Part shown: positions 15,977-60,036 of the stretch, in pieces
How positions within the stretch are numbered: position 1 is the first letter of the stretch
Layout: each line of letters begins with the position of its first letter
Program-made: the position numbers and the translations under genes
Notes under the pieces: generated by a model
Told to the model about the DNA's origin: nothing
Database searches by the model: none
The model's input: the letters and a program-made list of their open reading frames with translations, nothing else
From: Cytauxzoon felis
Lineage: Eukaryota; Apicomplexa; Aconoidasida; Piroplasmida; Theileriidae
Assembly: GCA_020283715.1 (NCBI GenBank)
Contig: JAIQCW010000093.1
Coordinates: 1 to 64,000, forward strand
Direction of reading: 5' to 3'
DNA length: 64,000 bases

Positions 15977-18571
15977 ATGCAAATGTCTAATAGCTTTGTA
16001 TCGCATAAACGTAATAATAAAAATATTGTAAAATGTTTATTTTGTTTAACTTTGTTTTTCTTGTTTTTACGTAACTTGACACTTATTACATATAAAAGTA
16101 ACAATTTAACTAATGTAAAGAATAAATCATCCAATGTGTTTTTGTACAATAAGGCTAGAGGTGTACCATATAATCCTATTTCCTATTCATTAAAAGTCGA
16201 TTTTGCGTCGGAAGAATCGGGTACAAAGATCGTCGCACAATCTTCATCACTAACACAATTGTCTAACATACAAACATCTGATCGTAATACCTATATGCTT
16301 GCTCCATGTCAAACTACCGATTGGTATGTTTTATCCTTTCAAGAAAGTATTTTGGTTGAACAAATTTGCTTCTTATCATACGAGTATTATGCATCGACCT
16401 ATAGGTAATTTCATTTGTGTTGATATATTTAATGCTTGGTACAGACATATAAGAATATCTGCGTCTGATGTGTTTCCGGCTACTAAGTGGAGATTATTAG
16501 CTAACATAGAAACAAAATCTAATATTAATGAAATATTCAACATATCTCAATTGTGTAAGAATAATAACAGTGATTGTTGGACAAAATTTATGAAAGTAGA
16601 ACTCTTAGACTACCACACTGTAGAGGATAACTATTACTGTTCTATAACTACTATGGAAGTATATGGTAAAACTGCTGTTGAGGTTTTAGAAAATGAAATT
16701 ACAAATGACAATGATGAATTGAGCAGTGATACAAAGGCTGTGAACCGAAAGAATTATAATTCTTTACATCCTGATATATCTTTTTCGCCTCCGTCTACAT
16801 CATTACAAGCATCAACATCCTCCGCATTAGAACTAAAAAGTTGTAAAATATTCCATCCGACTTTTATTTATGATATGAAAATGATGATAAATGAGTCTTT
16901 GTTAAAATTATTGTTTAATATAGCCTTTAAAAGTGACCCATTGAATGTAAACAAAAGTATTTTATTTAGAGTCGTAAAGATTACTAGGATTAAAAGATTA
17001 TATATATGTAAAAATAGATTACATTTTAAATGTATAATTAAAATACTGTTATTTGCTTCTAAAAACCCTTTTCTTTACACTCATATTTTACACGGGGTAA
17101 TGTTACCTATTAACCACACATGGTTTGATAGTATTATCTATCGTTTTATAAGAGGTACATACAATTCGACACACAATTTAACATCCAAAGTGGGCATAAA
17201 GGAGGCCCCAATATTAATTTGTCTTCAGTCAAAAGGTTTCATTAGTAAATATGCGTGTTATTCTTACTCTAATCTTAAATCATTTCCTAGATTAATATAT
17301 AATAAATTTATGATAGGATTCAATATAAATACGTTATATTACGTTGAAATATTCCATTTGATGTATGTAAATGGTAAAAAAACTGTTAAATCTCCGAGAC
17401 AAAAGAATATAAACGCTGGGAAAAAATATTCCATGGAACGAAAATATCACATTATTGACGATAATATATCTTCAATTGTAGTAAAGGGGAATAACCTCAC
17501 AGTATTTTTTGGTAAATCTGACGTTGGTCGTGCTCATAGGTCACTAAAATCTCTGTTTAAATCCAACGATTTCATAACTACAATATCAAAATACATTGCC
17601 ACGCAACTAAAAGGTTTACCATCTAGAAAAGACGGTAATGCAAAGTTATTTACTGGATCTAATGTATTTATAAATGAAACCTGCTTGGAAGAAGATGAGG
17701 AAGATGGAGAAATAGATAGAACAAATGTGCGTCAATCCAATGGACGTAGCGGACACGTGCTAATTAAAATATCCGAACGAATAAAATTACTTGAATTAAT
17801 CACAAATCAATTGAGTGGAAAGTTATATGAGAATGATAAGTTATTAAATTCGTATTTTGCACATTCCGTAGACGGAAGTTTTCATCCTAAACATTTGGAT
17901 ACGATTCCAAACACAATTGTGAGTTTATTTTTTAATAACTCCTTACTCTTTTATTATTGGAATTTTCATTTTGACTTTTAATTATATATAAAATTGTGTA
18001 GGATGAATGGAAGACTGCTATGAGAGAGATGCACGAAACTATTTCGATGTTAGGTATTCAACGCAAAGTTATTATCTTCAGAAGGAATCACAAGATCGAC
18101 CCACGTTACGAAACATTCCTTGCTAGAGATTTGAATAATAAATATACGTCTAGAATTCTATACAACAATGACAAACTTAATAATGTGTGTAATTTAATGG
18201 ATTGTAGTCACAATTTCAAAAGACTTAAATTAAGTAAGACTAATAGAATGTTGAATAGGTTTTTATTGCTGGACTATTGCTCAATACACGGCTGCAGTTG
18301 CACTAAAAAGATCCGCAGGCTTAATACACTATTGCTTTGGATGCCGCACTTTTCTAAACGGAGGAAACCTGTTTTATTTGATACAATTCGAGCACTATCA
18401 TTATATATATTAAGTGTCGCTTCATTAATAATAAATCTTGTTTTTAACACATGTACACTGATGATAGTCTTTACTTCTATACAATGGTATTGGTTCATAC
18501 GTTATAAATTGTTGGAAAGAAGACTAAAATTTATCGAACAGAAGCTTGACGCAAAGTTTGAAACAAAATAG
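15977..18571 (+). CDS. SUN-like (SLP1/SUCO-type) membrane protein, 823 aa
   Basis: Three exons (15977-16404, 16445-17918, 18002-18571) with introns of 40 and 83 nt. A membrane anchor lies near residues 20-40 (CLFCLTLFFLFLRNLTLITY). Residues about 70-225 match the Sad1/UNC-like domain: VDFASEESGTKIVAQSSS, RNTYMLAPC, FYxSTxR-like YYASTYRHIRISASD, WRLLANI, and CSITTMEVYG at the end. A long polar region follows, then a hydrophobic segment near the C-terminus (SLYILSVASLIINLVFNTC). The central SUN position and C-terminal anchor resemble the ER SLP1/SUCO/EMP65 group more than nuclear-envelope LINC SUN proteins, whose SUN domain is C-terminal. In that family the role is protection and folding of ER membrane proteins. 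Confidence 0.8.
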
Positions 18572-18688: not shown

Positions 18689-21600
18689 CTATATAAAGTT
18701 GTACATTAGAATTCTTTCAGAATACCTAAACTTGTAATTTCCAGACCTAGTAATCTTTTTGAAACCATAAATAACGTTTGTACGTTCATTTACAAGAAGT
18801 ATATAATGTATATTTGATATATCCTCTAATATACCATTGATTGATACATGAATGTCTAGATCTACTTCGTCTCTTTTATTAAAGATTACAGAGTCATCTA
18901 AGTTAACTATGAATTCAGTCCAAGAATTAAACAAACTTATGAATTTTGACTTCATGAAATGTTTTTTGAGAGGATTGTAAACATTTATTATTATACCGAT
19001 TGATGTATCAAATGTGAGATTCAAATTCAGAGGGTTCAATCCACATGATAGACACTTGTATAATAATAATAGGTATTGAACGTTTTTGAAATTGCGACAA
19101 ATAGCAAATATGTCAACGAAAGCCTGTAAATAAAAGAATAGGATAACCTCAATAGACAAACTTGTATAATACGTGGCACCTGATCCAGTATAGATTTAGT
19201 ATCGTTATGATAATCAAATACAGGCATTTTTATGTCAAATAATCTGGCTTGAATTAACAAGAAAGTTTTAGCATGTGGATCAGAGCCATCATCGATAGGA
19301 AATGGCGAACGATCAGATAATTGAATGTTATAAATATCTTCATTATGCCTTATTGGAACTTGGTTAAACTCAGTGGCGTTAGATAATGCATTAATAATCT
19401 TGAAAAATGATAAGTTATCGACCCTTTCAATTTCACTAGCAATTTTTGAGAATTTATGAACAGTGTCACACGATATATAATACTGAGATGCAACCAAACC
19501 GGATAATGTCGGAATAAGTACGCCATAATCCAATTGCTCAATGACATCATATTTAATGGATACACAGGATAATTTAATAAGCTTACTAATGGTATCAGTT
19601 ATAATGGCATTCGAAATTTCATTAATATCCCCCTCGCTTACAACTTTACTTATCGATGGGACATTCAAATAATATTGGGGATTCGTTTGCAATCTTTTGT
19701 AAAAAAATGTACTTGATAAATATAGAATAGCACGCTTTTTGCTAGAAACACTGCCAGTTGCTATCTCGGAATTCAAAAAATCCAATATACGTTCATGAAA
19801 ACACGATTCAGTAGGAAATGGAGAAAACATAAACTCCTTATAAAATCCAACCTTTCGTAGCTCTGTATAAATATAAGCAAAGGCATCTCCTTCCTCGATG
19901 CTTCTACCTGCTCGACCAATCATCTAAAATATATGAGAGTCAATATAAAATATGCAAACCTGCATTATATCACATATCGAGTAATCAACGTACTTTTTGA
20001 ATCGCCCATCATAATACTCGGTACCCTGAAAAATTATCAAAATAAAAATAATAATTGCCTTTTGTATCCGAATCTTAAGGTCAATATGAATGTCCATTGG
20101 AAGTTAGTATACACCCAACGATTTAAAGTTGATATTATAAAATGACCACAAATATATAAAGGCAAATAAAGAGTTGACATACCTTGACAATAACAATTTT
20201 AGCTGGTAAATTAACACCCCAAGCTAATGTTGAAGTAGCAATAAGTATTTTTATGTGACCTTTCATAAACAAATCCTCAACGCAGCGCCTATCGGATTCA
20301 TCTAGTCCAGCATGATGAATAGCGATACCATACTCAACAAATTTATTGAGATACTCATCCTTAAATTTTGGATAATTATAGTCACTGGACCAATTGATAG
20401 AATTCAACTGCAACAATCCCACAAAATCATGTGCAGTCATTCTAGTCTGTCTACGCGATGAAACGAATATTAAAATAGATGCACTGGGATCGTGCCGTAA
20501 AATAGTGTCAAAACAAGGCTTATTCATAGAATTCATTCTTGGGCAATAAGGTTTAATAGGAAATCCATCAATAAACAAGTTGCATTTGACTGGTCTTATG
20601 GCAGGCGAAAAATTAAATGTTTTGCAAGGATTAACAGATAACCATTCACTGATCTGCTGAGGATTAGCTAAAGCGGTTGACATGCATACAATACGAATTT
20701 GCTTCTTTGTGTATTCCTCCATGAACCTTAACCTCGTAACAATAGATTCAAGTACGGCACCCCTAGGTTCTCCAAGTAAGTGTACTTCGTCAATGATTAT
20801 AAGGCCAACGTCACGTACGAATGTACGCCTTTTCCAATATCTCGAAATTCCGTCCCATTTTTCAGGTGTTGTTATAATAATGTCAGAATTAATTAGATCA
20901 TTATAATTGGTATGAGAATCTCCTGATATCTCAATAATTTTTTTGAATGATTTAAACTTTTTGGACCAATCATTCAATCTTTCATAAGCCAGCGCTTTTA
21001 ATGGTGCAATGTAAACGGCCTTTGAATCACTAGTGTCGAACAGTCTATACAACGCCAATTCGGCAATCAATGTCTTACCAGAACCTGTAGGAGCGCCAAC
21101 AAGTATATTGTCATCACTCAAGAAACAATAAGGAAAAAGTTGTGTTTGTAATGGGTTAAAATATTTAAATTTATATACGCTTTCATATTTACCTAAAACT
21201 GATGTAGACAATGGAACTAAATTCTTTAAATCTGTGTATCCATCGAACCCCAAATTGGTTCCGATCACTTTCAACTGTTCTTCAAATATCAGTCCAATCC
21301 ACGACGAAGAAAAGAGTCTCAATGTTAATATTTCGTCTACACCAAATAATGGTATATAAAATTCACTGACTTCAATACATGCCTTAGAAAATGTGATTAT
21401 AGAATTTGATATTAACCTTGTCCTTGAACATACCCACAGGTAAAAAGATTCACTCATACCATTCCATCGTTTACTCCACTCATTGTTTAACTCAACATGA
21501 ACGTAAATTCTACCTATTTTGTTAGTTATTGGTTGAAAATGAACACTAAATTTTGGATACGGAATATATCTTAGATACTTGTATATCTTTAGTGCCTCAG

Positions 21601-24600
21601 ACTTAGATCTAACAACATTGGCTATTTCATCAACTGTTAAATCCATTAATGATTCAATTTTAAACATATTATCCAATCTGGACACAGTTCTCTCGGACAA
21701 CAATTTCGCATTATTAGCTTGGGATGATTGTATAGCATGATATGGGTAACAAAAATGTTTGAGAACGTTTATACAATTTAACTTTACATTCCATATTTGA
21801 CGTTCAAACATCAACACCCAATTATATATTATGTCTCCTATTGGCGGTCCGGAAACCGTTTCACATATGGACACTTCATAGTATGAACGTAGTAATCTAC
21901 CTGTATTCTGAGCAATAAAATTTAAGTCAGATACCAAGCTTGGAGTATTTATAAAGACCCGACTTATATGCATCTGTATCAATATGGAAACCTTACTTTT
22001 AACGTGATTTATTCCACTAGTAGGTATATAATAGCATTCATTAATTAATTTTGTCAGTTCTTCACACTCCTCATTGCGATAGAGTAGCCCCTCAAATTCC
22101 TTACACTCACACAACTTGTCTAATATATATTCCTCAGTTATATAATTTCCACATGTTGTATTAACTCTATTAGCTATTACATCTTGGGAATAAAGCAATG
22201 GATTTATTGATGCAGCGAAGTTATGTATGGTTTCATAGTCTACATAGTATTTTGCGGCAATCCGCCCTAAATCCGTAGCGAAAAATTCTCCTGTAACCTT
22301 CGAGTATCTAATCAACTTAGATTTATCTAAATTTTTAGCAGTTTCCTTTATCAGGTTTTGTCTATATTTTAGCAAAGCACTGTCATCGTCACTTGTAATA
22401 CCATAAAACAATGGGCTCTTAATCATTCTGACATATAAATAAGTGTATTGCAACCACAAATATGCTTCACTTTCATTATTTATAGTACCTAGTGCTATTT
22501 CAGCGTTTAGGGAATTTTCTAAATGACGGTGTAACTGGGATTCTATTGGCACTCGTTCTGTTTGCATTCTGAGGTAGGTATGGAGATTCTTATGTTCTGT
22601 TATTAATACACCACGGCCAATAGTGTCGTATTGTGGACGCCCTGCTCGTCCCATTATTTGTGTTAATTCCAAATTATTTATATTCCTATCAACACCTACA
22701 CCACCTATAAATGTGCCATGGATTATAACACAGTGAGCAGGTAAATTAACACCCCAAGCCAATGTAGATGTTGATACTAATACCTTTATCAATCCCAAAC
22801 GAAACATGTCACTAGCCATGGTTCTGTCATGTTTTGAAAGGCCCGCATGATGTATGCAGAAACAATAATCTACCAACTGTTTCAAATTAACAAATTTATT
22901 TTTGGATAGTTGCTGGTGAAATCTCTTGTATAGGGTGGTGTCAGGAACGAACAAATTAGCTTTATTGTCCATTTGTATTAGTTCTATTAATTTTGTGGCT
23001 ATTGCAAGTGTCTCATTACGAGAATGGACAAACACCATACACTGCTTTCCGTTCATTACTGTTTCGATAATGTTTTCATAACATATCTCCAACATTACAG
23101 TCTTAACATCATTCTGTTGTTTTACGCTATAAAATAATAAATTATTATAAATTTGTGAAATTCCCCAATAAAATCACAATTGATAAAGTTGAGTTGTTAA
23201 AATATAAAACATACCCATAAAATACTTGCTCGAGTGGAACATGTCTATATTCCCTACCAAAATAATATGCATGCTCCGGAGATACACGCAAAAATTGTGC
23301 AACATCGTTCCAGTTAGGTAGTGTAGCTGATATGCCAACAACCCTCCTATTAACCTGTGTAGATTCAATAAGCCTAAAATATATGATAAAAACTAAAAAG
23401 GAATACCTGAACAATCGAGCAACTACAGTCTCAATAACCGGTCCACGCTCATCGTTTAACAGATGTATTTCATCTATTATAAGGCAACTAATTTTAGACA
23501 TATACGAATCGTCAGACTGCGTTCCAGTTGTAAACGAATTCCTAGTAACGACATCGCATTTTTCAGGCGTTGTAACCATAATATCTATATCTTCAAGCTC
23601 ATACTTAGCATAGTGAAAATCTCCCGTAACTTCTTTAACAGTTAGTCCATATTGTGATAATGCTTTGATGTACTTTTCCGATACTTCAGATGCCAAAGCT
23701 TTCATAGGTGCTACATAAATCACCTTGCCACACTTTATTCCATCTTCAATAAATGGCTTAAAATTTTTTAATATACATAACAGTGCAATATTAGTTTTGC
23801 CGCAACCTATATTTGTTTCTAATGTTCGATATCCACCAACCTGTTGGAGCCGATATTAAAATATTTTGGTATGTGTTAAATGCACTGTGAAACACTTTAG
23901 ACTGAATGTTATTGAGTGTATCTATGCCTTCGAATGCCTTTTGTGCCCATATTGGTAGTGAAGAAACGGCAATTAAGTCATCAGGATCCTGTTTTTACGT
24001 TTATAAGTTAATGAAGATGTTAAACTAACCACTACTATTTTATCTTCTGAAACTGGAACAGTAATCTTTTCGTATAATTCGTGATCTTCTTTAACTATAT
24101 TCAATACAACTCTCGGTTGTATATTTATTGGTACCGATTTGCGATCATTTTTTAATTCCAATCCAACGAAACAGAATAAATCTTCAGGTGGTATTCTATT
24201 TAGAACAGATTCAAGGTTACTTCTATGTCTGGACAATTCTTTCCCAGTTCGTCTAAGTACTATCTTATTTAATATTTCATAATTATCATTATCCAATTTG
24301 TTAGAGTTGACTTTAGTGGTCAATTTATTGAGCATTATTTGCCATTGTCTAGTGAGATTTAGCCTAAAATCAATTAATTTAGAGATGAAATATAAATGCC
24401 CATAGCCTAAAATATCACATAGAGATGAAGCAATTATTTCGGGCTCAGAATCATTCAATATCTTGAGTATATCACTCATCAACTTCTTTGGTGATAAGTG
24501 TGTAGCGCTTTCACATATTCTAGCGCAGTTACGAAGACAATACGTAAATGTGCCCGCATCATCAGCATCTACAAGACTACATTCAATAGCATCTGAGATT

Positions 24601-27569: not shown

Positions 27570-27969
27570 AGTTAAAATATATTTTGTTGGCAAGCGAGAA
27601 AATTTTTGACAAAATATATCTTTAAACTAGTAAAGTGAAATCATATGATGAAATAATCCATTTTTAATATTAGTGAAATGATGAGTACAAAATATTGTGT
27701 GGTCATTTCATGTCACAAGTTGAGTGTTCAAGGAACATAATAACCACAAAATAAACATATGGCCATTTCATTATAAACACGTATTATATAACTTGTTATA
27801 TACATTATATGCACTCAATTAAGTGTCTAACAACATTATATACTGATATATAATCATATTATTTGTTGCCATGATCTGTACAGTTTTCACTCAAATTTTG
27901 CTTTAGCTTAAGGAACATAGTTTATTGTCTAACATTTATATAATTAAAAAACTACATATAGTGCCAAAA
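27570..27969. other. Intergenic region between divergent gene starts
   Basis: AT-rich gap of 400 bases between the COX6A-like gene (minus) and the kinase gene (plus). No gene or RNA is seen. An in-frame TTG-initiated extension of the kinase to 27925 was not accepted because a good ATG lies at 27970. Confidence 0.55.
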
Positions 27970-29475
27970 ATGCAGAAAATTTTAAAATCTATCGCACCTG
28001 ATGATATATCTCCTTTTTCCCTATCTTTGGCAAAGAGACTGAACACCTGCAACATAAAAGTTACTGAGAATTGCACCTATTGGAAACCTGCGGCTGTAAT
28101 AAGTGATAATGAATACTACATTGGGCGCGCCATTAATCAATACTTCGTCCAAGAAAAGATAACCAGTACGACTAATTCCACTATTTGGTTATCTTATGAT
28201 ATAATAAAGAACGAGCTTTGTTGTATGAAGGTTTACTATATTGTGGCCTGTATGAAGGAACGTTCCGTACGTTTTTTCAAGGAAGATACAGAAGTAATAA
28301 CATTATTAGACAAGATTATAGACGAAATGTTATATCATTGTTCATTGTACAAATGTCCGGGTGTTTCAAAAGTTAATGAAATTATAGTTAACTTGAACCA
28401 AGATATTATATACTTCATCATGTCATATTATCCATCGCAGTTATTATATTATGATTGCCATGACCAGTGTTACTATGGGCCATGTAGTAAGAGTCTATAC
28501 AATGAGTTAGGTGCAAAGCATATATTAAAAGAACTTATATATACAGTAAAATATCTACATGATAATGGTATCATTCACAAAGACATTAAGCCTGAAAATA
28601 TATTATTAAAAAAAATTGAATATAATCTTTTTGATATTCAATCCAGCGATCAATCCTCCAAAAATAATTCGTATAGCAGTACAATTATTAAAAAGTTACC
28701 ATCTAATGATGTAAATGCAGTTAAATTGTGTAAAAGAAATTATGATTTTATAACTAATTTGGAGCCGCCCTTGTTGAATACGTTGGATGAATATTTACTC
28801 AAACACTTCCCATACAATCCTTTAATTACTTCAGATTTCGACTGGAATTTGTGGGATGATGTAGATTTAACTTGTGATTGGATAACATCAGAAAATTCTA
28901 TACAAATTGGAAGAAATTCATATAACTATGCAAATCATCTTTACAATATATCAATAGATTCATGTTTTGATGTTTTTAATTACTTTATAAGCGAAACCTG
29001 TCCAATACCCTACAGAATTAATCCTAAGTTTGTTAAAAATAGCGAATTGGATGATACTGAATACAAATACCCCACCAACGAATTTGTTGTTATAACCGAC
29101 TTTGGTGTAACGAGTTTGGCATATACCGAAGACGGAGACGTAGAAAAACTTGCAATATATGATTCTGAAGGGACTTTAGCATTTATAAGTCCAGAAAGCC
29201 TAAAATACATGGATGGTAGTATATCGGCTAGGGAGCATGACGTATACTCTCTGGGTGTCACTCTATATTGTATGATATATGGTAAACTACCATATTATGG
29301 CAATAATTCAATTCAACTTCTTGTCAATATGTTAGAGGAACCGCTAAACTTTGGATCTAATCGCATTATATCGCCAGAACTTAAATCTTTGCTGTCAGAA
29401 ATGTTGGATATGAATTATAAAAATCGCATATCACTAGACGAAATACTTAGGCATCCGTGGATGATTAATACTTAA
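27970..29475 (+). CDS. CAMKK/SNF1-activating-type serine/threonine kinase, 501 aa
   Basis: Single exon. Kinase landmarks in order: the ATP-site lysine in CCMKVY, catalytic loop IIHKDIKPENILL (HRD as HKD), then a long low-complexity insert of roughly 150 residues, then DFGVTSLAYTEDGD, the activation-loop end GTLAFISPESLKY, DVYSLGVTLYCMIYGKLPYY and a final HPWM. The DFGV, GTxAFxSPES and GVTLYC strings match the calmodulin-dependent kinase kinase / Elm1-Tos3 group, upstream activators of SNF1/AMPK-like kinases. I see no calmodulin-binding segment. The Gly-rich loop is poor. It is probably active, since the Lys, HxD Asp and DFG Asp are all present. Its stop is 4 nt from that of the convergent gene. 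Confidence 0.8.
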   Translation: MQKILKSIAPDDISPFSLSLAKRLNTCNIKVTENCTYWKPAAVISDNEYYIGRAINQYFVQEKITSTTNSTIWLSYDIIKNELCCMKVYYIVACMKERSVRFFKEDTEVITLLDKIIDEMLYHCSLYKCPGVSKVNEIIVNLNQDIIYFIMSYYPSQLLYYDCHDQCYYGPCSKSLYNELGAKHILKELIYTVKYLHDNGIIHKDIKPENILLKKIEYNLFDIQSSDQSSKNNSYSSTIIKKLPSNDVNAVKLCKRNYDFITNLEPPLLNTLDEYLLKHFPYNPLITSDFDWNLWDDVDLTCDWITSENSIQIGRNSYNYANHLYNISIDSCFDVFNYFISETCPIPYRINPKFVKNSELDDTEYKYPTNEFVVITDFGVTSLAYTEDGDVEKLAIYDSEGTLAFISPESLKYMDGSISAREHDVYSLGVTLYCMIYGKLPYYGNNSIQLLVNMLEEPLNFGSNRIISPELKSLLSEMLDMNYKNRISLDEILRHPWMINT

Positions 29476-44917: not shown

Positions 44918-47900
44918 TCAACGTTTTGCAAGGTATGATAATAATTCAGAAACTTCAAGATAATCATTTAAATAAAATTTGGCCTTGCTTGGTCTTTTGC
45001 CTACTGTACATGAAATGTAGTTATCTAATTGTTCATCTATCTTAGATTCATCAATTAAACTATCGGATGTGCCATCTTTATTACTAACACGGTTACACAA
45101 AGTATTTAACGCTTTAAACATCTCTTCGTCTGAACGGTCATCACCTATGCATAAAATAAAGTCAAAATCCCCAAATAATACAGAATACTTCTTAACAACA
45201 TTTAAAAATGTGTTACCTTTATTTATACCTTTCAGTTTAACCTCTACACGACCCTTTCCACGGTGAACTTCAACGGGAAATCGAGCCATAACCTCACTAC
45301 ATTTGTTATTAATTAAATTATAATATAAAAAACATACCAAAGTACAGGATATAGTTCATTAGCTTGTATAGTGCCAAATTCTGGATCTGAATTGTGATAT
45401 TGGAATGATACAGCACTACCATCAATATCCAAATAACTTCCAGGTGTACGTTTGGCATATTGCTCAAGTATCTGTGTAGCAGCATCTTTCCATGACTCTG
45501 ACACTACCTCATGAGTACAATACCATTCATTACCAGAAACAGCTGGCAGTTTAATATCATATCCGTGCTCAGCACACATACCAACGTTGTCAAATTCACC
45601 AAACCATGATTCCATGATCTTCTTTACCCTACAGCTAATCAAAACAATAACGTTACGTTTATCAGATGCTAATATCCTCAAACTTTCCAAATTTATTTCT
45701 AATGGAGCACTGTGCAATTTAATCTGTCGCTTCATTTCACTTGTAGAACGCACACGAGCATCAGACAGATTGGGTGACAACGTACCCTCACAGTCTAAAA
45801 ATAATAATCGTCGTTTTGAATTTTCAAAATATTTTAAAACGTATTCAGGATCAAGCAATTGAAAATTGCTAGATACAGAATATGTTTTGTATGTCCTACC
45901 AAAACCCCAAGTTAAATGAATCATATTATCCTTCTTTCTGGCATAAAATAATTCCTTAACAAAGTCCTCAACCCATGTAATAGTATCATATGACATCAAA
46001 TAATCCACATCGCGTCTACAGGACTCAATACTATCCTCCAAACTTCTAGACATGACAGTATCTAAAGCGTCCATAACACTTTCCATGTGCCATGGATTAA
46101 CTCTTACAGCAGACAATAAAGTCTTACTAAATCCTGTAAATTCACTGACAATGGCAGTGGCGGCCATTCCCTTCCTGCAAAAAATGTATTCGAATGCAGC
46201 CAAATTAATACCACCACGAATGGCGGTATCCATAAAACAATCGGCTGCCATGAATAATGCATATTTTTGTTCAGTTGTAATATTACAATTAAAAATAATA
46301 TGAGTGGTCTAAATGTAAATAATTTGTTAACACTGTGACAAACCTGAAAATCTGCATTAATTGCATGTACCAATTCACGGAGCTTTATGAAAATATCTAC
46401 ATTCCCTTCCCATAATGTATCCATAGTACAAGCATGTTGTACTAACAATACTTTACCACGAGCATTCGGATACGCACGTAAAAATCTTCTAAAAGCTTTA
46501 AACTTAAGTACAAGACCAGAAAGACGGGTATCTCGATCAACTGAAGCTATTATAAATCGGTTTGGCCATTTCTTTTTTAGATCTTCTACAAGTTCTGGAA
46601 TACGCGTGTTATCAGCAATTTTTTTCATCAACATGTCAGGTTGTATGTGAGCGTGTGACATTCTGACCATCACCTGTCTTCCATTGTACTCGATACGTAA
46701 TACACCACCAACAGAAAAATTAAATTCCAATCCAAGTAACCTTCTGCACGAAGTCAAAAATTGTCGAGCAAATTCGAAATAATGAAATCCAATCAAATCG
46801 GCACATAACATGCTACGCAATATCTCTTCCCTAACCGCCAAGCATGCAAACAAACTACAAGATGGAAACAAAGCGTGCATAAAAAGTCCTATATTCGCCG
46901 TTCTGGTCTTTCTAGTTATAAAGTGTGGGACCATTAACAATTTATAATCATGTACCCATATATAATCGTTGTCAGATATACATTGTGCAACCACTGATGC
47001 ATAATAATTATTAACCTTCAGGAAAGATTGCCATAAGTCCCAGTTGAATTCTTTCTGCTCTACTATATCCCACAATCCAATGTTATAAAATAAGTTCCAC
47101 ATGTATATTTGACAAAATTTTAGCGACTTCTTCAATTCACCTCTAGGAATAAATACGGGTATGCAATCGTAAGACAAAAGCAATTTACGAATTTCCTCCT
47201 GTTCCTCTTCAGTAAATTCTACTACGTATTGACCATCTTCACTGTTTGTATTTTCCATATTTAGTAAGTCATGGCGTTTTGTGCCACGGTCCACAGAATC
47301 ACCACGCTTGAATGCACGAGAACCACTAAAAGTTTTATCCTCAAAATATTCAGCATACTTAGTATTAGTATTGAAATCATTTTTAGAATCGCTCTCACTT
47401 TCAGCAGTAATCGAGCATGCACCTATAAAGCGCATCCTATTATTATAACGATTACGTAATTCCCACATCATTGACGTAAGAGGTGTATTGCTATCTCTTA
47501 TGCCAAATGTACCATCTGATTGACGAAAAATCTGTATAGGTAGACGTGAAGATACGTAATAAACCATGTCATTTGAGTCCAAATCACACGTGCCCAAATC
47601 TTGTGCAATTCTTAAATGAGCATTTGGGCTCCTCTCGTATGAGCGCAAGCCTGTTGATTGTACCCCTTCTGTATCCTTATCCTTAAAAGTATACTTAGAG
47701 CATTTGTTACGATAATAACCTTCATCATCTTCTACTAGCATTTCATTACCTGTTGGTTCTAGTCTCCGCAAGGATGAGTCACACCATCTCAGGAAATTAC
47801 CCCTATCATCTAATACAGCATACCTATATTCCACCACTTGTTTAAGTGGAAGGTGTACAGGAGTATATGAATTCCATATATCTTCTGCAATGTCACTCAC

Positions 47901-48026
47901 GGCTAATTCGTGAGCATATTTAGTATTCCAATTACCTAACTTGCTGTCTGATCCTACAACAATAAGCCTATTTCCAAATTCCAATTCTGCACGATAGCGA
48001 AAATGTACAGCAGTGTAAAAAACCAT
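44918..48026 (-). CDS. CBM20-TPS-TPP trehalose-6-phosphate synthase/phosphatase-like fusion, 1010 aa
   Basis: Three exons: 48026-46344, 46308-45338, 45296-44918. Residues about 1-95 resemble a starch-binding CBM20 domain (IVVGSDSKLGNWNTKYAHEL, VEYRYAVLDDRG). The GT20 synthase domain follows (VFIPRGELKKSLKFCQIYMW, YIWVHDYKLLMVPHFI), then a HAD phosphatase domain (LLFLDCEGTLSP, EHGYDIKLP, GDDRSDEEMF). Residues essential in OtsA-type synthases look changed: the KG of DRLDYxKG reads SG in SVDRDTRLSGL, and the Asp of LRDGMNLV is Gly in IRGGINLAAFE. HAD motif I is DCEGT instead of DxDGT. The layout matches plant class II TPS proteins, which are mostly regulatory. Synthase activity is unlikely; phosphatase activity is uncertain. 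Confidence 0.85.
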
Positions 48027-48618: not shown

Positions 48619-51600
48619 CTATTCAAACCTTCCCTTTACCTTCGAATAATTATAGCATATCTTGGTCATTTGTTCTACCAGCTTTACTTTATATTTTACA
48701 GTTTGTTTTATCCGATATGTTACTGTGCATTTATAACTCCCTGTGCGGAAGTGTTTGTGCAATTGGTTGGAACGTTCGTGATATGTGGGACTTCTATGAT
48801 TTTCTGCATTGTCCTGTTTGGAATGGATTCCATTTATGAACTTCCCAAGTATTTTTGGATTGGTATCCTTTCTACATAAATTTGTGCTTTTATCTTTTAA
48901 TAATTTACTTTTAACAGGTCCTGATGTACCTTTATCAAAGCTGTTTAATTCAGATTCTGTGAATTCAGGTTCAACTTTGTGCTTTTCTATGGTTGGAATC
49001 TTTTCTACTGGAACAGTATGTGTATCTGTTGTTGGATGTGTTCTACGATTGTTCGTGTCTTTCACAACCACATCGTTGATAGCTATGTCCGATGGCGTGT
49101 TGCATTCATTGATGGAATTTATTTTACTACTTATCATTAGTTGAATGATATCATGAATGGAATCTCCGGCTGTAATGTTGTAAATTAAAGTTATGATTTG
49201 AGAACGTGTATGTAGCACGGATGGCCGAGCGGTCAAAGGCGCCAGACTCAAGTTCTGGTGGGCGAGAGTCCTCGTGGGTTCGAATCCCACTTCGTGCAAT
49301 TTATAATCATAATTTCATCATTAATATTTAATTCTTAATTTTATTTGTTTATAATTATTGTTTTAAATATCGATGATTTAATATTTTTAATGTCCGTCTA
49401 TGTTATTGTTAAATGTGTGACTTACCCACTGGCATTGATTCCGATATCTGTTCCCTTATTTTTATGAGTTCATCTATCTGTGAACAATTCGCAATCATAC
49501 ATAAAATATTCTCTGTGTTTAAATTCTCCCTAATTTTGTTTCTTCTTGTTCTGTCACAATCTTCATCATTCTTATATTCCGTCTCATTTGTGCTGATATC
49601 TCCTTTAACATCATGGCATATAATTGTAGATTCCATATCATTTAATATGTCTGTATGAGTTTGCTCTTCTACATCGTTATTCGTAACTTTTATGTGGCAT
49701 TCAGGTATTAGACCTTCAATTAGTAATTCCTTACTTGGATCGTTTTTGTTTCTCGTATATTGTAATATTTCTCTGGCCATTTCGTACTGTCTTTTAAATT
49801 TCGTTGAATCTTCACGGAGAATATTAAGGTGTATGTGACTGCTCCTCTTTCTAGCTTCACCCTTATGCATTAGGACGACCTAGTGATAGTTATAATAATA
49901 ATTTTGTCTGATTATACCTGGTATAATGGCTCTATATCGATGTTTAACGTCATTAAAGAAAATGTTACGTGTTCTATAAATATTGGTTCTAGTTCATCGA
50001 ACGTGTTGCAACAATCCTCAAGAACATTGAGGTAAAATAGTTTGTAACTATTAGAATAAGCTAATTCATTCACATCTATACTCTCATCGTCTCTATTTGA
50101 CATAGTTTTTTGTGATATTGATAATTTAGTCCGTTTTGAATAACGTAATAATGAATTTTTTCCAAATAACATGTCATCATATAACTTATCCGTAGAATTA
50201 TATAATAATGTATCGTACATTATCATCAATAATTCGGTACATTTTGGTCTGTATTTGTTCATTTCTGTCCTTGCTACGAATTCTAAACAATCATAAATGT
50301 GATTACTTAAAGGCTTGTCATATATTCCTAAGATTCTATTATGCAACAAGATGGCATCATCATATTCAAGATTGTTAAGATCATCCAGTAGCCTAACATT
50401 GTTATGAGCAATAGCATATGCGCATCCAATTTCTATCATCATCTTATGATCAAGCAAGTGTAGTTTGCTGATGATCTTGTCTATAAACCTATTGAAATAT
50501 GGTATCGTGTCAAATGGCATTTTCATGATGGTGTTGAATATAATCATAGGATCATTTTGAATCTGCAATTTATCAAAAACTCTAACAATCCTATTAAGTA
50601 TTCTTGTTGTTATATCATAATTGACCATAAAATCAAATTGCATTTCAGTAAATCCAAACAACAAATAAATAGAAGTATACAAGTCCATATCATTAATGTA
50701 ATCGTTTATAACTACAATAATCTTTGATATCAAGCTAGATAGAAATATCCTGGATTCCGGTTTGATAGTATTCAAAATAATTACGATGTCATCTAGTGTC
50801 AATGTTTCAAGAACAGTTATATTATTCAAACTGGTGTTGAGCATCTTTTTAAGTATTTCTTCTGATACAAGATCCATTTTACTGCAAAAAAACAGTGCAT
50901 AAACCAAGTATTGAGTATTTTCATAATGGTATTCAATGAATTCGTTAATCAAAATCTTACATACATTTTGGAACTCAATATAAATATTCATATGATAGAA
51001 TGACCATAATAGTGACAGAATTACAGTTGAATCTATGATATGTAACCCCTTTTTTGCAATCTCTAGTAATTTGTCTCTCCTTTTTGCCTGTGATTTTAAA
51101 ATATCAGAATCTTTAACTTCAGAAGTGATATTGTCTATCAATAATGGAGGTGCACATTCGTATGCCCATAATCCACCCTTGTTTAGATTCGCTGGTATAA
51201 ATCCCTTGAATGAATTAAGTGATATTCTCGATGTATCAGTATGACTTTCGGAATGTTTCCTAAGTCCAGAAACTAGGCCAATAGCCAATGAAATCCCATC
51301 ATTTTTGTTCTTTGAATTTGAAGATTTAATAGAGAAGCCATAAGATAACGTTTGAAGTAAGATGTCATTTTTTGACCATTTTACAACTAGCATATAGTAT
51401 TGAGTCCTGTTTTTATTATCTCTTGACAACTGTACAGGTGATTTACCAGTATTCGGTACCGAGCGAAATACACAGGACGAAAATATATCATTCAAATATC
51501 CCACCAAAACTTGGCCCTTGTTTAATTTATGAAAGCTATAATAATAAAACTTACAGTTAGAAATGTCGGAAGTTTACGTGTTTTATCTGTATTAGAAATA

Positions 51601-57087: not shown

Positions 57088-60036
<2,949 letters not shown>

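Follow-up and report, generated by a model that had tools for sequence, protein, structure and literature searches.

A gene on the minus strand of a 64,000-nucleotide stretch of DNA from the piroplasm Cytauxzoon felis (contig JAIQCW010000093.1, positions 1 to 64,000; the whole stretch is called the window here) encodes a fusion of CBM20, GT20 and HAD domains. By sequence comparison, it is the piroplasm ortholog of the alveolate-type CBM20-TPS-TPP protein, which is annotated as 'trehalose-6-phosphate synthase' in Theileria and Babesia, and it probably acts as a regulatory or scaffold protein that is dead as a synthase of trehalose 6-phosphate (T6P). A dead synthase in piroplasms, proposed earlier in a sequence-only reading of the window, is well supported as a prediction from the active site, where the catalytic Lys, the donor Asp, the residues corresponding to R300 and Y76 of OtsA and the GG donor loop are all altered; UDP-glucose pyrophosphorylase is also not found in the genome. 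No description of a piroplasm TPS as catalytically dead was found in titles and abstract openings, mostly outside subscription journals.

The gene runs from an ATG at 48026 to a stop codon ending at 44918, both coordinates being exact, and its three exons give an uninterrupted spliced frame of 1010 amino acids. CBM_20, Glyco_transf_20 and Trehalose_PPase follow one another in this frame, each over its Pfam cut-off (48.8 bits against 23.3 for CBM20), so that the intact fusion described in the sequence-only reading stands. A frameshift, a pseudogene or a sequencing error is ruled out by the open frame together with substitutions common to all 15 piroplasm sequences. Profile searches of the genome (8.6 Mb, 181 contigs) found a single gene for each of GT20, CBM20 and TPP, namely this gene in all three cases, and a second intact synthase elsewhere is rejected on that basis; introns may hide weak exons from such searches, and absences reported below mean 'not found'. 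The GT20 module belongs to the trehalose-6-phosphate synthases by both sequence family and fold, the listed rows of the structural comparison covering GT20 and HAD and barely CBM20.

Homologs were taken as the best 120 of 265 and the best 120 of 1656 matches, and the query was aligned with all 216 distinct listed homologs (217 sequences). The closest homolog among the matches listed is that of Theileria equi, with 63% identity over 100% of the query, followed by those of Theileria and Babesia species. In a quick tree of 64 of the 217 sequences, made without bootstrap and with four trait columns omitted, the query and T. equi are joined with 97% SH-aLRT support, and Babesia microti forms a long branch. 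The piroplasm set (n=15) contains two sequences of T. orientalis (P0003 and P0004) and two without an organism name (P0011 and P0013), which are placed in the Babesia clade by sequence and tree position only.

Residues are labelled here by the numbering of OtsA, and the roles attached to K267, R300, D361, Y76 and the others are those that we assume for OtsA. In an alignment with Candida albicans Tps1, VDRDTRLSGL corresponds column for column to VDRLDYIKGV, and AIRGGINLA to STRDGMNLV. This places Ser503 at the catalytic Lys and Gly593 at the donor Asp, as the sequence-only reading had supposed. The column of residue 503 holds Ser or Ala in all 15 piroplasm sequences and Lys in none, the Asp equivalent to D361 is likewise found in none (0/15), the R300 column is occupied by Asp in 15/15, and the GG donor loop is changed to TP throughout (15/15). 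The Y76 column, where the register has a one-residue gap, is without Tyr in 15/15, and Tyr stands in neither register in 14 piroplasm rows. A substitute basic residue for the Lys was considered and rejected: residue 501, the closest candidate, is Arg in 13 of the 15 sequences, whereas T. equi has Ile there and B. microti has Lys, and none is fixed in sequence. Asp588, located five residues before the lost Asp and present family-wide, could in principle compensate. Over the GT20 columns that are near-invariant in the bacterial-type rows (n=71, P0049-P0120 without P0051, many lacking an organism name), the commonest piroplasm residue matches in 55 and differs in 43.

Much of this pattern extends beyond piroplasms. 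Of the 217 sequences, 112 have Lys at the Lys column, 70 have Ser, 31 have Ala and 4 have another residue, and Ser or Ala is found in every named listed alveolate (piroplasms, Toxoplasma, Neospora, Eimeria, Cyclospora, Cardiosporidium, gregarines, Cryptosporidium, Vitrella, Polarella, Perkinsus, Stentor and Blepharisma). Since the loss of Lys is common to all of these, it is old and no lesion peculiar to this gene. Arg occupies the R300 column in 108 of the 112 Lys-bearing sequences versus 6 of the 101 Lys-less ones, and the second motif I position of the HAD domain is Glu in 2/112 versus 98/101, the other HAD motifs being mostly retained; these associations are drawn from related rows, many of the Lys-less ones without an organism name, and do not represent independent events, the tree requiring a minimum of 4 changes between Lys and not Lys and of 7 between Asp and not Asp. 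The sequence-only reading picked out the right residues but made them seem more special to this gene than these counts show, neither the loss of Lys nor DxE being particular to it. The two Lys-bearing sequences with DxEGT, P0164 and P0170, have both CBM20 Trp residues and branch outside the alveolate group, and DxE therefore seems older than the loss of Lys. Gly at the D361 column occurs outside piroplasms in one Lys-less row (P0137). Elsewhere this column holds Asn in Polarella, Ala or Asn in nearby rows without a name, Ser in Perkinsus and Glu in Stentor and Blepharisma, and Asp persists in Toxoplasma and Vitrella as well as in five of the six Cryptosporidium species with a name. Judged from these distributions, the substitutions differ in age, the loss of Lys being old and common to every named listed alveolate, DxE to nearly all Lys-less relatives, and the change from Asp to Gly being fixed in the piroplasm sequences.

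The HAD and CBM20 modules have been altered unequally among piroplasms. In the C. felis protein, the HAD nucleophile and motifs II-IV are present and the second Asp of motif I is Glu. The resulting DCEGT, listed as an alteration in the sequence-only reading, is indeed there at residues 733-737, but it amounts to no special lesion. It leaves the nucleophile in place, DxE runs through the whole family, and the score of the T. equi ortholog, 85 bits, is above the cut-off of 68.05 set by NCBIfam for trehalose-phosphatase. DCEGT is present in 14 of the 15 piroplasm sequences, B. microti being without the motif, and in nine Babesia-clade sequences besides B. microti (two of them without an organism name) the GDD of motif IV has become GDH (8) or GDS (1). 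W33 and W81, which we take to be the tryptophans of CBM20 binding site 1, are both retained in 14/15, and predicted carbohydrate binding by CBM20 is therefore plausible in most piroplasms. B. microti has lost both residues. B. microti (P0017, one listed gene model accepted as it stands) has also lost the motif I nucleophile and the motif II Ser and retains GT20; because of this nucleophile loss the HAD domain seems dispensable. Its identity to the query is 52% over GT20 residues 263-690, 40% over the short N-terminal part of GT20, 35% over CBM20 and 31% over HAD. Columns invariant over the 15 piroplasms make up 25% of GT20 263-690, 33% of the 52 N-terminal GT20 residues, 21% of CBM20 and 13% of HAD. 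Conservation is thus highest in GT20, the body of which appears to be the part most needed.

The genome profile searches, in which hexokinase was recovered as a positive control, gave no match to glycogen phosphorylase, GT5 starch synthase, PPDK_N (dikinase), alpha-amylase or trehalase, and the CBM20 domain looks like an orphan in this genome because no starch enzymes were found. The sole UDPGP-family match (G000:C85:69129-69767; L005:1384-2466) is a divergent, short open reading frame (ORF) of 360 amino acids, which matches UDP-GlcNAc pyrophosphorylases in 11 of 11 listed sequences from the PDB and adjoins an ORF that is Kelch-like by eye. UDP-glucose pyrophosphorylase was thus not found in the genome, where only this UAP-like UDP-sugar pyrophosphorylase was seen, in agreement with a report that lists Theileria and Babesia as lacking UGPase and UGGPase (PMC2935371). 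A search for AMPKBI (the AMPK beta-subunit) gave no match, but no control match either, and it carries no weight. A pattern search of the window's DNA with a degenerate motif likewise gave no match and is of no relevance to the gene. The trehalose reading of the annotations is probably wrong for piroplasms, by both the residues and the missing pathway genes.

Several known systems resemble this protein in part. Toxoplasma gondii TGME49_297720, annotated as a trehalose-phosphatase, has the same CBM20-TPS-TPP order, and P0121 (1222 amino acids, equated with it by name and length) has Ala in place of the Lys, carries DCEGT and falls in the same tree group as the query. Published data on its knock-out and on a phosphosite connect it with amylopectin (PMC12607534, PMC11414933). 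Knock-out parasites are viable with slower early growth, and clones contain more glycogen or starch and lower levels of starch-degrading enzymes, and assays of the recombinant enzyme failed (PMC12607534). At pH 8.2, the share of vacuoles positive for periodic acid-Schiff (PAS) staining is lowered by S1073A and raised by S1073D (PMC11414933). The Toxoplasma protein keeps D361 in a cell that makes amylopectin, whereas piroplasms have lost D361 and starch enzymes were not found in this genome. The Theileria and Babesia 'trehalose-6-phosphate synthase' is the same gene as the query, with Gly at the Asp column in all 14 listed, and the activity suggested by its annotation finds no support in the residues. 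Plant class II TPS proteins (AtTPS5-11) are TPS-TPP fusions that are reported to be inactive as T6P synthases and to associate with subunits of SnRK1 (PMC12589705). The parallel with them drawn in the sequence-only reading holds for the layout and the principle, the query too being a TPS-TPP fusion with altered synthase residues, but not for the route: the listed plant class II rows carry Asp at the R262 column (VDD) and keep K267 and DxDGT, while the query keeps R262 (VDR) and has lost K267 and D361. The listed plant proteins also lack CBM20 in precomputed Pfam lists, unlike the query, and class II TPS may serve here as an analogy in which a different residue is lost. The red-algal isofloridoside-phosphate synthase PhTPS4, close to plant class II, has an N-terminal CBM20 followed by TPS and TPP, keeps D562 and E570, has R464 changed to Asp and R501 deleted, and is active (PMC6642608); it shares the layout of the query and differs in being an enzyme, as far as the paper's own description goes.

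On the reading of a non-catalytic regulator, the GT20 module would be a docking or regulatory body, and in most species CBM20 could still bind alpha-glucan or maltodextrin. The protein would probably tune carbohydrate or energy metabolism via partner proteins, which fits the Toxoplasma phenotypes and plant class II TPS, and in the Theileria-like branch the HAD domain may retain phosphatase activity in a weak or altered form. Sensing of sugar phosphates, which the sequence-only reading had offered as an alternative to carbohydrate sensing, is doubtful because the canonical ligands of glucose 6-phosphate are gone.

Some observations weigh against such a regulator. The R9, D130, H154, R262, N364 and E369 columns are unchanged in 15/15 piroplasms, which exceeds what free decay would leave, and the T. 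equi phosphatase score given above favours a live HAD domain. The starch phenotype of Toxoplasma is not directly transferable because no starch enzymes were found here; moreover, its authors stress general side effects of the knock-out (PMC12607534), and the S1073 mutants are alike at pH 7.0 (PMC11414933). One plant class II protein is cited as rescuing yeast tps1, and trehalose has been measured in Cryptosporidium parvum oocysts by a coupled assay (PMC2935371). The Lys is also missing from all six Cryptosporidium species named in the list, which do not include C. parvum, and loss of Lys alone may therefore not abolish synthesis. The oocyst trehalose also speaks for a working trehalose synthase-phosphatase as annotated in the homologs, fed by UDP-glucose from the host, and the same paper lists Theileria and Babesia with a bifunctional gene and suggests such a supply (PMC2935371). 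We consider this very improbable for the C. felis protein, as piroplasms are altered at Lys, Asp, R300, Y76 and the GG loop alike. The T. equi ortholog also scores too low for two NCBIfam models, that of OtsA (220.9, with a cut-off of 564.85) and that of bifunctional TPS-TPP (376.6, with a cut-off of 634), a shortfall that weighs little because it is shared by Vitrella and Neospora and because both are bacterial models.

The main rival, though still unlikely, is an enzyme that has changed its reaction. The alveolate family would in that case have moved to another donor or acceptor (e.g., glycerol phosphate, as in red-algal isofloridoside-phosphate synthase), with HAD removing the phosphate. 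Altered sites can accompany an altered reaction, since PhTPS4 makes isofloridoside phosphate although its R262 equivalent has become Asp and its R300 equivalent is deleted (PMC6642608), and this, too, counts against a purely regulatory protein. The arrival of the changes as a set (Asp588 in 94/101 versus 0/112, together with the R300 counts above) looks more like remodelling than decay, and HAD motifs II-IV are intact in the query. Piroplasms, however, are without D361 in 15/15, which PhTPS4 keeps, the UAP-like one is the only UDP-sugar pyrophosphorylase found, and the HAD nucleophile is gone in B. microti and a motif IV Asp in the nine Babesia-clade sequences. Fungal Tps2 and the regulatory subunits Tsl1/Tps3 belong to a complex with active Tps1, whereas no other GT20 gene was found here. 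A protein that is a phosphatase only, acting on T6P or another sugar phosphate with GT20 as a dead structural module as in Tps2, is distinctly unlikely: Glu stands for the second motif I Asp in each of the 14 sequences, out of 15, that retain the motif, the Babesia clade and B. microti break further HAD motifs with GT20 better conserved, and a source of T6P was not found in the genome.

A wider and more tentative proposal may be made. Alveolates might carry a separate class of pseudo-trehalose synthases with a coordinated signature (Lys to Ser or Ala, loss of the glucose-6-phosphate Arg, a new Asp five residues ahead of the donor Asp column and DxE in HAD), which would have begun as a starch-linked regulator. 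In piroplasms it would then have been stripped stepwise of the donor site and the HAD site, and in B. microti also of starch binding, while the GT20 body would have been retained for a conserved function other than catalysis, for instance as a docking site for a kinase or phosphatase controlling the use of energy or carbon. Retained in 15/15 piroplasm sequences, and here in a genome without detected starch enzymes, the likely pseudoenzyme would be a clean system for class II-like TPS roles without trehalose or starch, and B. microti, with HAD and starch-binding sites lost, provides a natural degradation series that reveals which part stays conserved.

Table 1. Positions in the window of the exons, domains, motifs and codons of the CBM20-GT20-HAD gene.
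Feature	Position	Strand	Remarks
Exon 1	46344..48026	-	residues 1-561: CBM20, linker and first two thirds of GT20; spliced model and Pfam
Intron 1	46309..46343	-	35 bp, GT-AG, phase 0; gapless at junction against T. equi
Exon 2	45338..46308	-	residues 562-884 and two bases of codon 885: GT20 end, HAD start; spliced model and Pfam
Intron 2	45297..45337	-	41 bp, GT-AG, phase 2; gapless at junction against T. equi
Exon 3	44918..45296	-	HAD domain end and stop codon; spliced model and Pfam
CBM20 domain	47760..48014	-	W33 (47930-47928) and W81 (47786-47784) kept
GT20 domain, first part (exon 1)	46344..47213	-	PF00982 match
GT20 domain, second part (exon 2)	45949..46290	-	PF00982 match
HAD trehalose-phosphatase-like domain, first match	45331..45693	-	PF02358; extends 7 bases into intron 2
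HAD domain, second match	45095..45307	-	PF02358; starts 11 bases inside intron 2
Ser503 codon	46518..46520	-	at catalytic Lys column (OtsA K267)
Asp536 codon	46419..46421	-	at glucose-6-phosphate phosphate Arg column (OtsA R300)
Asp588 codon	46228..46230	-	Asp in 94/101 Lys-less relatives, 0/112 Lys-bearing
Gly593 codon	46213..46215	-	at donor Asp column (OtsA D361); Gly in 15/15 piroplasm sequences
HAD motif I DCEGT	45781..45795	-	residues 733-737; nucleophile Asp733 kept, second Asp is Glu735; DxE at 45787-45795, also noted among homologs P0014-P0037
HAD motif IV GDDRSD	45128..45145	-	intact in query

Other features were seen in the window. A tRNA-Leu (CAA) gene at 49215-49298 on the plus strand overlaps an antisense ORF of 226 amino acids (48619-49299), the start of which is doubtful as part of a gene because of this overlap. 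A minus-strand ORF of 560 amino acids at 58354-60036 contains four cyclic-nucleotide-binding stretches and presumably resembles the regulatory part of the apicomplexan cGMP-dependent kinase. Another minus-strand ORF, of 986 amino acids at 20135-23095, has Sec63, DEAD and SNRNP200 wHTH domains and is probably a fragment of a spliceosomal helicase of the Brr2 type. On the plus strand, an ORF at 27925-29475 has a protein kinase domain, and one at 16299-17981 has a Sad1/UNC-like (SUN) domain.
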